Origin: an uncultured Spirochaetales bacterium | GTDB taxonomy: Bacteria > Spirochaetota > Spirochaetia > Sphaerochaetales > Sphaerochaetaceae | Assembly: GCA_949288415.1 (NCBI GenBank) | Contig: CASEKE010000015.1 | Coordinates: forward strand, 1-64,000 | Reading direction: 5' to 3' | DNA: 64,000 nt | Shown here: positions 58,265 through 63,143 of the stretch, one piece after another | Numbering within the stretch: position 1 is the first letter of the stretch | How the letters are laid out: each line of letters opens with the position of its first letter | Made by a program: the position numbers and the translations under genes | The notes under the pieces: generated by a model | What the model saw: only the letters and a program-made list of their open reading frames with translations | Databases searched by the model: none | What the model was told of the DNA's origin: nothing

Positions 58265-58945
58265 ATGAACATTTTCAAAAGAATCGGAGATATCGTCTCC
58301 TCCAACGTGAACAGTGCTCTCGACAAGATGGAAGACCCGGAAAAGATGATCGATCTTTCGATCAGACAGCTTGAAGATTCGATCGACGAAATGAGAGTTC
58401 TTCTCAGCGAAAAGAAAAGCGAACAGGCAAAAATCGAAAACAGCATAAAAGAAAGCGAGAATCTTGCGACCCGATGGAACGAGAGAGCCCGTCTTGCCGT
58501 CGAAAAGGACCTCGATGACATGGCACGCGAAGCAATCGGCGAAAAGCGGAAGATCGAGGATACCCTCGAAGTCGAAAGAAGCGCAAAGAGCGAACTTGAC
58601 TACCTCGTAGGAAAACTCGAGGAGAATCTTACGGACGCAAAGGGAAAACTTGCAGATCTCAAAAGCACAAGCGTCGCTTTGAAGGCAAGGGCACAGGTCG
58701 CAAAGGAACGTCTCAAGGTCAACAAAAAGGCCAATGTCGATGAGACAGCTTCATACTCGAGACGTCTCGAAGAGCTGAAACTGAAAATCGAGCGCTGGGA
58801 ATCCGAAGCGGATATCCACCATGAGGACCTGAAGAAGAAAGCAGAGAGGCAGACTCCCAGCTTCGAGGAACTCGAGAAAGACAGTGCAATAGAAAAGGAA
58901 CTCGAAGAACTCAAAAGACAGAAGAAAGAACTGAAGGTGGAGTGA
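58265..58945 (+). CDS. pspA: Phage shock protein A (PspA/IM30)
   Basis: A 226-residue, almost entirely coiled-coil protein: MNIFKRIGDIVSSNVNSALDKMEDPEKMI at the N-terminus, then ESENLATRWNERARLAVEKD and long Lys/Glu-rich helices ending KELEELKRQKKELKVE. PspA is a peripheral inner-membrane protein that oligomerises on damaged membranes. It follows a consensus sigma54 promoter and AAGGAG, and its stop overlaps the pspC GTG. A second, divergent PspA is encoded at 63185. Confidence 0.94.
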   Translation: MNIFKRIGDIVSSNVNSALDKMEDPEKMIDLSIRQLEDSIDEMRVLLSEKKSEQAKIENSIKESENLATRWNERARLAVEKDLDDMAREAIGEKRKIEDTLEVERSAKSELDYLVGKLEENLTDAKGKLADLKSTSVALKARAQVAKERLKVNKKANVDETASYSRRLEELKLKIERWESEADIHHEDLKKKAERQTPSFEELEKDSAIEKELEELKRQKKELKVE

Positions 58946-59175
58946 AAGAAGTGAAATACCACGAAGATTACTACGAGTACGAGACGGCAAGAAGGTCAAA
59001 GCTCGGAAGAAGCGTCAACGGGCTTGTTCTTGGAGTCTGCCAAGGTCTGTCCGACTGGTCCGGCATTCCTGTAGGCATAATAAGAATAGCCGCAATAATA
59101 GCCCTTTTCACAACAGGATTTTTTCCTGTGGGCTTTTTCTATCTGCTCCTGGCAGTCCTGCTTCCTGCAAAGTAG
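58942..59175 (+). CDS. pspC: PspC-domain membrane protein
   Basis: A 77-residue protein with a charged N-terminus and a PspC domain (LGRSVNGLVLGVCQGLSDWSGIPVGIIRIAAIIALF, then FFYLLLAVLLPA). It inserts in the inner membrane and usually binds PspA or PspB to signal stress. It starts with a GTG that overlaps the pspA stop codon (GTGA), behind AAGGTGGA, so the two are translationally coupled. Confidence 0.9.
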   Translation: MKEVKYHEDYYEYETARRSKLGRSVNGLVLGVCQGLSDWSGIPVGIIRIAAIIALFTTGFFPVGFFYLLLAVLLPAK

Positions 59176-59186
59176 ATACGTTATAC

Positions 59187-59216
59187 AAAGGGGCTCTCGT
59201 ACGAGGGCTCCTTTTT
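59187..59216 (+). terminator. Intrinsic terminator of the pspA1-pspC operon
   Basis: A 13-bp stem AAAGGGGCTCTCG/CGAGGGCTCCTTT (two wobbles) followed by TTTTT. Confidence 0.8.
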
Positions 59217-59231
59217 ATTTATAATGGATGC

Positions 59232-59711
59232 ATGAAGGCGATACACACCATCGATCCTGTATATGACAAATTCTCCAGAATACTCATTCTCGGATCTTTT
59301 CCGTCCGTAAAATCGAGGGAAGCCGATTTTTTCTATGCACACCCGCAAAATCGGTTCTGGCGGTTAATGGAAATTCTTTACGATTCGAAAAGTCTCAAGA
59401 CGATCGACGACAAAAAAGCTTTTCTGCTGGAACATAACATAGCCCTATGGGATGTAATCGGAGAATGTACGATAACAGGTTCGGCAGACAGTAGTATCAG
59501 GGATGTGATACCAAACAACCTCAACAGAATACTGGATACGGCGACTATAGAGAAAATTTTCATAAACGGCTCGACAGCAGGAAAACTTTACGTGAAATAC
59601 CAGGAGAAAAAAACAAACATGAAGGCTGTCGTCCTCCCGTCCACCTCGCCGGCAAATGCGACATTCTCGTTGGAAAAGCTAGTGGAAAAGTGGAAAATCA
59701 TAACTGATTGA
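59232..59711 (+). CDS. DNA-deoxyinosine / mismatch-type uracil-DNA glycosylase family protein
   Basis: A 159-residue uracil-DNA glycosylase-superfamily protein: ILILGSFPSVKSREADFFYAHPQNRFWRLM and LPSTSPANATFSL. The LGSFPS...FFY...NRFW pattern fits the DNA-deoxyinosine/mismatch glycosylase branch, which removes deaminated purines or uracil. Cytosolic. No Shine-Dalgarno precedes the ATG; a perfect TATAAT (59220-59225) ends 6 nt upstream (leaderless), inside the tail of the pspC terminator. Confidence 0.85.
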   Translation: MKAIHTIDPVYDKFSRILILGSFPSVKSREADFFYAHPQNRFWRLMEILYDSKSLKTIDDKKAFLLEHNIALWDVIGECTITGSADSSIRDVIPNNLNRILDTATIEKIFINGSTAGKLYVKYQEKKTNMKAVVLPSTSPANATFSLEKLVEKWKIITD

Positions 59712-59717
59712 AAGTAT

Positions 59718-59733
59718 TGTTTCACGTGGAACA
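59718..59733 (-). promoter_or_regulatory. parS site (ParB/Spo0J binding)
   Basis: TGTTTCACGTGGAACA is the exact reverse complement of the classical B. subtilis parS TGTTCCACGTGAAACA. ParB binds it and loads as a sliding clamp. Forms an inverted pair with 59753-59768. Confidence 0.85.
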
Positions 59734-59752
59734 TCATGACATTTCAAGCACC

Positions 59753-59768
59753 TGTTCCACGTGAAACA
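59753..59768 (+). promoter_or_regulatory. parS site (ParB/Spo0J binding)
   Basis: TGTTCCACGTGAAACA is an exact match to parS. It is 35 bp centre-to-centre from the first site, in inverted orientation. Confidence 0.85.
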
Positions 59769-59825
59769 TGAATCGAAAAACAGAGAAAAGCAAAACTGCA
59801 CATTACAGGAAATCATCAAGAAAAA

Positions 59826-59887
59826 CTAATTAGGGTTCTGTACCCTAATTAGGGATTTCAAAGCTATTTTCCTAAAACTCCCTAATT
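59826..59887. repeat. CCCTAATT repeat cluster
   Basis: CTAATTAGGG (59826-59835), CCCTAATTAGGG (59843-59854, perfect palindrome) and CCCTAATT (59880-59887). The first two arms also form a 10-bp hairpin with a 7-nt loop. The meaning is unknown; it could be a protein-binding array. Confidence 0.55.
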
Positions 59888-60224
59888 TTCATCAAACAGC
59901 CGACAAATCGACAATATCGACTTAATTCGTTGTAATATATGGACTATACATTATAAATGCCAGGGGCCTACAGGCTTCGGCATCTGCAAGAAACATAAAT
60001 CGCATAGAACTATCGTTCCTACATGGTCGCCCCCTCGACTGTCGCGCATGTCCTATCGTACGGCCTATCTAGAAGCGCGGATCGGCAACATTTTCGAAAC
60101 ATTGACGGCGAAAGAGAACATCCGTTGTAAAAACAGTTATTGTAATCGTCTATACATCTGACGAAGGAGCAGCATCCGATTACGGTCTGCGGATTTTATA
60201 ATTTATATAAACTTTCAGAACGGT

Positions 60225-60254
60225 AAAAAAACGACCCTGCGCAAAACAGGATCG
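60225..60254 (-). terminator. Intrinsic terminator of fhs
   Basis: On the minus strand CGATCCTG/CAGGGTCG (one wobble) with 7-nt loop is followed by seven T. Confidence 0.88.
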
Positions 60255-60270
60255 CCTAATCCGTACAGGT

Positions 60271-61941
60271 CTAGAACAGACCGGATATGACTCCGGAATC
60301 ATCGACATCGATTCCCTCGGCAGCAGGTATTTTCGGCAGTCCGGGCATCGTCATAATATCTCCGGCATACGCAACAACGAATCCGGCACCGGCATTTACC
60401 TTGATATCCCGTATCGTTATCTTGAATCCTTCAGGAGCACCGATCTTCTTCGGATCGTCGGAAAACGAATATTGAGTCTTGGCAATGCATACAGGATAGT
60501 CACGATAACCTTCGCTCTCGGCCTTCCTGATTTTTGTAAGCACACCGGGAGCGAAGACTACACCGTCCGCCCTGTATATCCGCTTTGCAACGGCTCTTAT
60601 CTTGTCGGCAATGGATATATCGTCAGGGTATGTGAACGTTCTAAGAGAGGGATCGCATTTCTCCACGGCCCGAAGGACCTTCTCTGCAAGGTCGAACCCG
60701 CCTTTTCCACCCTTCTCCCATACCTCGCAAAGAGCTACTTCGACACCCTGTTTCCTGCAGAAATCCTCTACAAGCGCCAGTTCGGAGTCAGTATCGCTGG
60801 TAAAACGATTGAGAGAAACCACGACAGGCAGATGCCATACATCTCTTATATTTCCGATATGCCTATCGAGATTCTTCATCCCTGAAGCCAGAGCGTCCAG
60901 ATTTTCCTTCCCGAGATCATCCTTAGAAACGCCACCATGACTTTTCAGAGCACGCACGGAAGCGACGAGAACGACCGCACTCGGCATCATCGACGCCAGC
61001 CTGCATTTGATATCTATGAATTTCTCTGCACCGAGATCGGCACCGAATCCCGCTTCCGTGACGACATAGTCGGCAAGCTTCAGCGCAGTTCTCGTCGCGA
61101 TCACGCTGTTGCATCCGTGAGCGATATTGGCGAATGGTCCGCCATGCACGAGAGCCGGAGTTCCTCCCAGAGTCTGCACGAGATTAGGCTTTATCGCGTC
61201 CTTCAGCAAAGCGCAGGCAGCTCCTTCCCCATGAAGATCTCCAAGCGTGACGAGTCTGTCGTCATATGTCCTGGCCACGATCAATCTTGCCAGGCGTTTC
61301 TTCAGATCGGACAAGTCCATCGCAAGACAGAACGCAGCCATGACCTGGCTTGCCGTGGTGATCTCGAATCCATCCTCACGGGGAACGCCGTTGCTCTTTC
61401 CTCCCAGACCGGAGATTATGAATCTGAGCTGCCGATCGTTCATGTCCAGACAGCGTTTCCAGACGATCCGCCTAGGATCTATCCTGAGAGGGTTGCCTTG
61501 CTGAATCGAGTTGTCGACAAGTGCGGCTATCAGATTGTTTGCCGCTCCTATCGCATGGAAATCGCCTGTAAAGTGGAGATTTATGTCCTCCATCGGAACT
61601 ACCTGGGCATAACCGCCTCCTGCGGCACCGCCTTTAAGTCCGAACACAGGTCCTAGCGACGGCTCGCGAAGGGCAAGACATACATCTTTTCCGAGAAGAT
61701 TCAGCGCGTCGGCCAGCCCGATCGAAACAGTTGTCTTTCCTTCTCCGGCAGGAGTAGGATTGATTGCGGTAACAAGTATGAGCCGTCCTTTCTTCCCAAC
61801 GGTTCCAAGACTTCTATAGTCGACCTTGGCCTTGTATTTTCCATAATCCTCGAGCAGTTCCTCGGGGATCGAAAGTCTGCCTGCGATTTCATGGATGTGC
61901 CTCATCCTATAGCTTTGTGCGATCTCGATATCTGACAGCAT
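60271..61941 (-). CDS. fhs: Formate--tetrahydrofolate ligase
   Basis: A 556-residue protein of normal length: P-loop [18 protein letters not shown] near residue 65, [41 protein letters not shown], and the C-terminal [21 protein letters not shown]. It makes 10-formyl-THF from formate, THF and ATP for one-carbon metabolism. Start ATG 61941 after GAGGTG; a GTG two codons upstream is an alternative. Promoter TTGTAA-17-TAGCAT lies upstream. Ends at a T7 terminator. Confidence 0.96.
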
Positions 61942-61959
61942 TTTCACCTCACAAGGCAG

Positions 61960-61988
61960 ATGCTAGAGAAAAAAGAAATTTTTTACAA
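61960..61988 (-). promoter_or_regulatory. Promoter of fhs
   Basis: On the minus strand TTGTAA (61988-61983), 17 bp, TAGCAT (61965-61960), in the gap after pspF. Confidence 0.55.
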
Positions 61989-62020
61989 CCTGGAACGAGC
62001 TTGCAGGACCGAAAACGGCT

Positions 62021-63043
62021 TTATTTCAGCCTGTCCTTATACTTTCTGTAAAGGCCACGGAATTGATCGTAGGTTATGCCGAGAAGCTCGCTGGCCCCTT
62101 TCTGGCTTCCGGAGCTTTCATCAAGAGCTCTCGAAATGAACGAGATGTCCAGATCCTCATGGGCTTTCTCCAGAAGCTTCAGATCATAGCCGAACGGGGT
62201 TGCCCCCTGCTGCGAAGCAGCATGTCCGGTCCGGTCATTCTCCGCCACGGGCAACGGGCTCCATGGATTTCGGAATGGATCGAACTCGACATGGTCTATC
62301 ACATTGCCTTCGGTCCTGTAGACGGCACGTTCGACGACGTTCTTCAGTTCTCTCACGTTGCCCGGCCATGGATACTCCAGAAGCTGGTGCTCTACTTCCT
62401 CCGTGAATATCGGTATATCCGTTCTGGAACATTCGTAGCTCATGCGCGACGCAAAATACGATGCAAGCAAAAGGATGTCCGTACCCCGGACGCGGAGCGG
62501 CGGCAGAAAGAGTACCTCGAACGAAAGACGGTCAAGCAGGTCTTCCTTGAATTTGCCATCGCGGCAAAGCTGAGGAAGGTCGGCATTTGTAGCTCCCACT
62601 ATTCTCACATCGGCTTCATGCGTCACCGACGATCCGACTCTCTGGTATGTGCCATACTCCACGACACGCAGTATCTTTTCCTGCACCTCGAGAGGCATCA
62701 GGCCGATCTCGTCGAGAAAAAGCGTACCGCCCTCAGCCTCCTCGAAACGGCCTTTCCTCGTCTGGACCGCACCGGTGAAAGCGCCTTTTTCATAGCCGAA
62801 AAGTTCACTTTCTATGAGCGAAGGCGGAAGAGCCGCAAGATTGACAGTCACGAGAGGACCTTCCCACCGTGAAGACAGGTAGTGAATCCTTTTCGCCGAG
62901 AGTTCCTTTCCCGTACCACGTTCCCCGATGATCAGAACCGGACGATCCACTTTCGCAACCTTGCTCAGTCTGGTCTGGAAATCGAGATAGGCCTCGCTCT
63001 CGCCGACTTCCTTGACCAATGTGTCCCTAATGCTTGCACCCAT
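62021..63043 (-). CDS. pspF: Sigma54-dependent activator PspF
   Basis: A 340-residue bacterial enhancer-binding protein: Walker A GERGTGKE, the sigma54-contact loop GAFTGA in GYEKGAFTGAVQTRKGRF, GGTLFLDEIGLMPLEVQEKILR, and a Fis-type C-terminal helix-turn-helix (ASELLGITYDQFRGLYRKYK). It lacks an N-terminal sensor domain, as PspF does. Divergent from a pspA gene with a sigma54 promoter. Its own sigma70 promoter (TTGGTA-17-TATTAT, 7 nt before ATG, leaderless) is covered by two enhancer-like elements. Confidence 0.92.
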   Translation of the reverse strand: MGASIRDTLVKEVGESEAYLDFQTRLSKVAKVDRPVLIIGERGTGKELSAKRIHYLSSRWEGPLVTVNLAALPPSLIESELFGYEKGAFTGAVQTRKGRFEEAEGGTLFLDEIGLMPLEVQEKILRVVEYGTYQRVGSSVTHEADVRIVGATNADLPQLCRDGKFKEDLLDRLSFEVLFLPPLRVRGTDILLLASYFASRMSYECSRTDIPIFTEEVEHQLLEYPWPGNVRELKNVVERAVYRTEGNVIDHVEFDPFRNPWSPLPVAENDRTGHAASQQGATPFGYDLKLLEKAHEDLDISFISRALDESSGSQKGASELLGITYDQFRGLYRKYKDRLK

Positions 63044-63044
63044 A

Positions 63045-63079
63045 TGGCAAATAATACCACCTATGGCAAAAATTACCAA
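63045..63079. promoter_or_regulatory. Candidate PspF enhancer pair overlapping the pspF promoter
   Basis: TGGCAAATAATACCA (63045-63059) and TGGCAAAAATTACCA (63064-63078), 19 bp apart. The first contains the pspF -10 (TATTAT, minus strand), the second the -35 (TTGGTA, 63079-63074). They lie about 70-100 bp upstream of the pspA2 sigma54 promoter. Confidence 0.68.
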
Positions 63080-63143
63080 CAATCAAGACCCCACATAGCC
63101 CCATTTCCTGTGGAAAGAGCCCTGCTTTGATGCTAGAATCAGC

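Follow-up and report, generated by a model that had tools for sequence, protein, structure and literature searches.

In most bacteria that possess a ParABS system, several parS sites are present in each genome, and the origin of new parS sites is, to our knowledge, little documented. Chromosomal parS sites conform to the consensus TGTTNCACGTGAAACA (PMC7022226). As described in two studies (PMC7053999, PMC8367383), ParB is loaded at parS as a CTP-dependent clamp and then slides. Residues R173 and G201 of Caulobacter ParB are conserved in all extant ParB and are Q and R in the related protein Noc (PMC7383237). In Pseudomonas aeruginosa a parS site works only within approximately 650 kb around oriC (PMC5098823), and Caulobacter tolerates an extra parS cluster in a zone of approximately 500 kb centred on the native one (PMC5815017).

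Here we describe a natural pair of parS sites in a metagenome-assembled genome (MAG) of the Spirochaetia (2.08 Mb, 53 contigs, 87% complete). The pair lies in the first 64 kb of contig C15 (97,752 bp), the stretch of DNA that was analysed and that we call the window. The type of site is ordinary; its position is mildly unusual.

Sequence and setting of the pair

The original prediction held that two exact parS 16-mers separated by 19 bp lie in inverted orientation in a gene-free region, and their sequences and coordinates are exactly as claimed (Table 1). The pair is indeed intergenic, occupying a 559-bp gap between the converging 3' ends of the glycosylase gene and fhs. Both copies match the published consensus over 16 bp, one per strand, and each is one base off the perfect palindrome TGTTTCACGTGAAACA. 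Together the two 16-mers, 35 bp apart from centre to centre, form a perfect 16-bp inverted repeat. Its arms reach exactly as far as the parS motif and no further, which is what selection on the 16-mer itself would be expected to produce. Because parS is near-palindromic, the 'inverted orientation' of the pair says little, meaning only that the GTTCCAC half-sites of both copies face each other.

Table 1. Features at and around the parS pair (positions in the window unless a locus is named)
Feature	Position	Strand	Remark
pspA and pspC	58265..59175	+	left border of the inserted block
DNA-deoxyinosine glycosylase (TIGR04274)	59232-59711	+	6 nt between its stop codon and parS copy 1
parS copy 1, TGTTTCACGTGGAACA	59718..59733	+	GTTTCAC outer half, GTTCCAC inner half
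spacer between parS copies	59734..59752	.	19 bp; inverted repeat does not extend past the 16-mers
parS copy 2, TGTTCCACGTGAAACA	59753..59768	+	GTTCCAC inner half, GTTTCAC outer half
fhs, formate-tetrahydrofolate ligase	60271-61947	-	convergent with the glycosylase gene
pspF-like sigma-54 activator	62021..63082	-	right border of the inserted block
compared pspC/pspF junctions	window 58945-62021; L088:9613-12527; L090:9880-10342

That such a match could not be accidental was also part of the prediction, and the numbers agree. A third-order Markov model built on 254 kb of this genome gives approximately 0.0016 expected sites per 2.08-Mb assembly and 5e-5 per window, and the same estimate for 2.08 Mb gives approximately 7e-11 expected pairs within 60 bp; the reversed parS pattern, used as a control, had 0 matches in 60 genomes. 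A chance origin of the pair is excluded.

Pairs as close as this one are present in 11 of 393 genomes of the phylum. A scan of the GTDB r220 species set for the facing arrangement of GTTCCAC, with spacers of 4-34 bp allowed, gave 77 stretches, one of them in Treponema bryantii, a member of the same class; a special meaning of the facing halves was considered and rejected, since the spacers observed are spread over 6-34 bp and imply no fixed geometry. Within the present genome the GTTCCAC half-site is unused in the main parS cluster, which speaks against the pair as a parS locus of this ParB. The TGTTCCACGTGAAACA variant was found in four other congeners; in G004, G015 and G021, for example, it lies beside canonical sites. 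Close parS-like pairs also occur on at least 120 viral contigs (IMG/VR loci L177-L296), and the commonest viral spacers, 7-8 bp in 46 of the 141 pairs among the matches listed, represent a geometry not seen in the window. Within the intergenic gap there is a further hairpin (CTAATTAGGGT/ACCCTAATTAG, window 59826-59852), followed by a T-run on the minus strand and situated approximately 420 bp downstream of fhs, which is likely to be the fhs terminator.

The ParABS system and its distance from the pair

From the pair alone, a ParABS system had been predicted, with no parA or parB in the window, and this is what the rest of the assembly contains. The sole ParB-family match is on contig C45, separate from that of the window, which itself has no parB match; the protein has all three ParB Pfam domains and its gene adjoins parA. 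Also on C45 are dnaA and, at 59866-62505, five sites, of which two are perfect parS and three deviate from it at one position. Along this contig the cumulative GC skew, a check suggested at the outset, turns at a minimum at approximately 65-70 kb, beside dnaA and parAB. Smc is encoded in the genome. Hence the features expected of a chromosomal parS, a 16-bp match to the consensus and cognate parA and parB genes, are found together here. Residues R189 and G217 of this ParB match the positions of Caulobacter R173 and G201, and its score against the TIGR04285 Noc model is below the cut-off; its predicted specificity is of the parS type and not the Noc type. A Noc binding site was considered for the pair and ruled out, given that the sequence is exactly parS and the sole ParB-family protein found is of the ParB type.

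The distance between the pair and the main cluster was approached through synteny with two better assembled relatives of 2.1-2.4 Mb, G034 and G024. Open-frame searches show that C15 is collinear with contig C2 of G034 (approximately 99-182 kb) and contig C1 of G024 (approximately 30-109 kb), and that C45:1-80 kb is largely collinear with stretches around dnaA on the same contigs of these relatives. Between the junction orthologous to that of the pair and the parS cluster there are 136 kb in G034 and 114 kb in G024; the corresponding distances to dnaA are 141 kb and 120 kb. In the window's genome the known pieces from the pair to the first parS site of C45 sum to 98 kb, and in the relatives a further 55-73 kb separates the ends corresponding to C15 and C45. 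The distance from pair to main cluster is therefore at least 98 kb and probably approximately 150-170 kb, by inference from the relatives rather than as read from the assembly, a fragmented MAG. This falls inside both the Caulobacter and the P. aeruginosa distances, which were established on chromosomes larger than this one.

By synteny, the pair is on the left arm, inside the origin-proximal domain. The origin-proximal placement proposed originally is thus upheld and extended to a particular arm; it needs refinement in that the pair is a second locus and not the main centromere cluster. Two further differences emerged from the same comparisons. Segment C45:132720-139817 maps inverted to G034:C2:110-118 kb, between C15:25.7 kb and C15:27.4 kb, which suggests a rearrangement between the two chromosome arms; and C45:11520-35127, in the origin-proximal left arm, is an insertion of approximately 23.6 kb when compared with G034 and G024.

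Congeners and the inserted block

In the 30 congeneric genomes with listed sites, the parB locus is the sole place with exact parS, a single-locus statement which for most of the 30 means sites within 6 kb on one contig, nearby dnaA or parB having been checked in part of them. Apparent second loci in G032 and G022 proved to result from contig ends that cut through the parAB cluster; parA/parB are next to the site on contig C3 of G032 and contig C45 of G022. These contig breaks inside the cluster (G032:C1/C3, G022:C30/C45) illustrate how parS counts from fragmented MAGs can mislead. No counterpart of the pair was found in the relatives examined, and hence orthologous positions offer no signal of purifying selection.

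In the window's genome, and thus in a single assembly that is itself a fragmented MAG, the glycosylase gene, the parS pair and fhs appear as a block inserted at the pspC/pspF junction. The fhs and glycosylase genes are at other places in relatives, at loci without parS. The pspC-pspF gap is approximately 0.45 kb in G024, and is filled by a different, repeat-rich gene in G034. Across three congeners this convergent junction is empty, or holds the repeat-rich gene, or holds the glycosylase-parS-fhs block, and such differing contents mark it as an insertion-prone place. The pspA/pspC and pspF neighbourhoods of three of the closest relatives by fhs identity are without parS at up to 3 mismatches, and the idea of a degenerate parS remaining at the same junction was likewise rejected, none being present at up to 3 mismatches in the pspC/pspF, fhs or glycosylase loci of relatives. 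Since the junction lacks parS in relatives, and fhs and the glycosylase gene are elsewhere, the pair would not predate the insert; its acquisition, either along with the glycosylase/fhs block or later, probably took place in this lineage. One species has a second parS locus in an inserted block, and the rest of the genus keeps a single cluster.

Interpretation and likeness to known systems

In our view the pair very probably constitutes a genuine second parS locus of the chromosome, on which the single ParB of the organism would act. Conceivably the pair was left behind by a plasmid or mobile element that had integrated, bearing a ParB that used chromosomal-type parS, and has no present role, as might be suspected from its location in a block absent from relatives at pspC/pspF and from the occurrence of parS-like pairs on many viral contigs. 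Yet the only ParB-family match in the assembly is the chromosomal one, the block consists of ordinary chromosomal genes that other genomes of the genus also carry, and both sites are intact, so that wherever they came from they should be bound by the resident ParB; we regard such a remnant as unlikely.

It is very improbable that ParB at the pair chiefly regulates transcription of the neighbouring fhs or psp genes instead of taking part in segregation: the flanking genes converge on the site, so that it adjoins their 3' ends and not a promoter, and, although ParB affects gene expression in some species, loss of Spo0J in Bacillus subtilis left the expression of parS-adjacent genes unchanged (PMC7022226). 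Least credible is that the inverted repeat functions as an RNA hairpin, at the 3' end of the glycosylase transcript or as its terminator, and resembles parS incidentally. The repeat does begin 6 nt downstream of the stop codon of the glycosylase gene and has a strong predicted fold (z -4.9), but its arms equal parS base for base, for which chance is no explanation, and it is absent from a terminator scan that takes loops of 3-8 nt only. An intrinsic terminator at the pair was rejected, as the hairpin forms without a T-run on either strand. Rfam at gathering thresholds gave no matches over the window and ARAGORN found no tRNA, which rules out a known structured RNA at the pair.

Taking the pair as a second parS locus, ParB dimers would load at both 16-mers and, once closed as CTP-bound clamps, slide onto the adjacent DNA, forming a small ParB patch on the left arm. 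This patch could recruit Smc, could join the main partition complex next to oriC, and may have an effect on fitness. Its proximity to the native cluster, at no more than a few hundred kb, would explain why the extra locus is tolerated. The pair is most likely a predicted extra ParB-loading site, probably gained recently, in a zone that tolerates additional parS. A bolder proposal is natural centromere expansion, in which a lineage-specific second parS locus at an insertion-prone site, approximately 100-170 kb from the native cluster, would form an independent centre of ParB/Smc loading on one arm and alter the folding or segregation of the origin region; this we hold to be doubtful.

In comparison with known systems, the sites resemble those of B. 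subtilis Spo0J in their identical 16-bp sequence, the cognate chromosomal ParA and ParB and the origin-proximal position. What sets them apart from typical chromosomal parS is that a secondary locus carries two of them, with 35 bp from centre to centre. In Treponema bryantii (NZ_FORI01000001; L099, L164), TGTTTCACGTGGAACA and TGTTCCACGTGAAACA likewise face each other, although there the pair is part of a dense parS-like cluster, whereas the pair described here stands alone. The extra parS clusters of Caulobacter (PMC5815017) are likewise second chromosomal loci away from the native cluster, but those were engineered, while the present locus is natural; it would represent a small natural example of the Caulobacter tolerance rule rather than a new mechanism.
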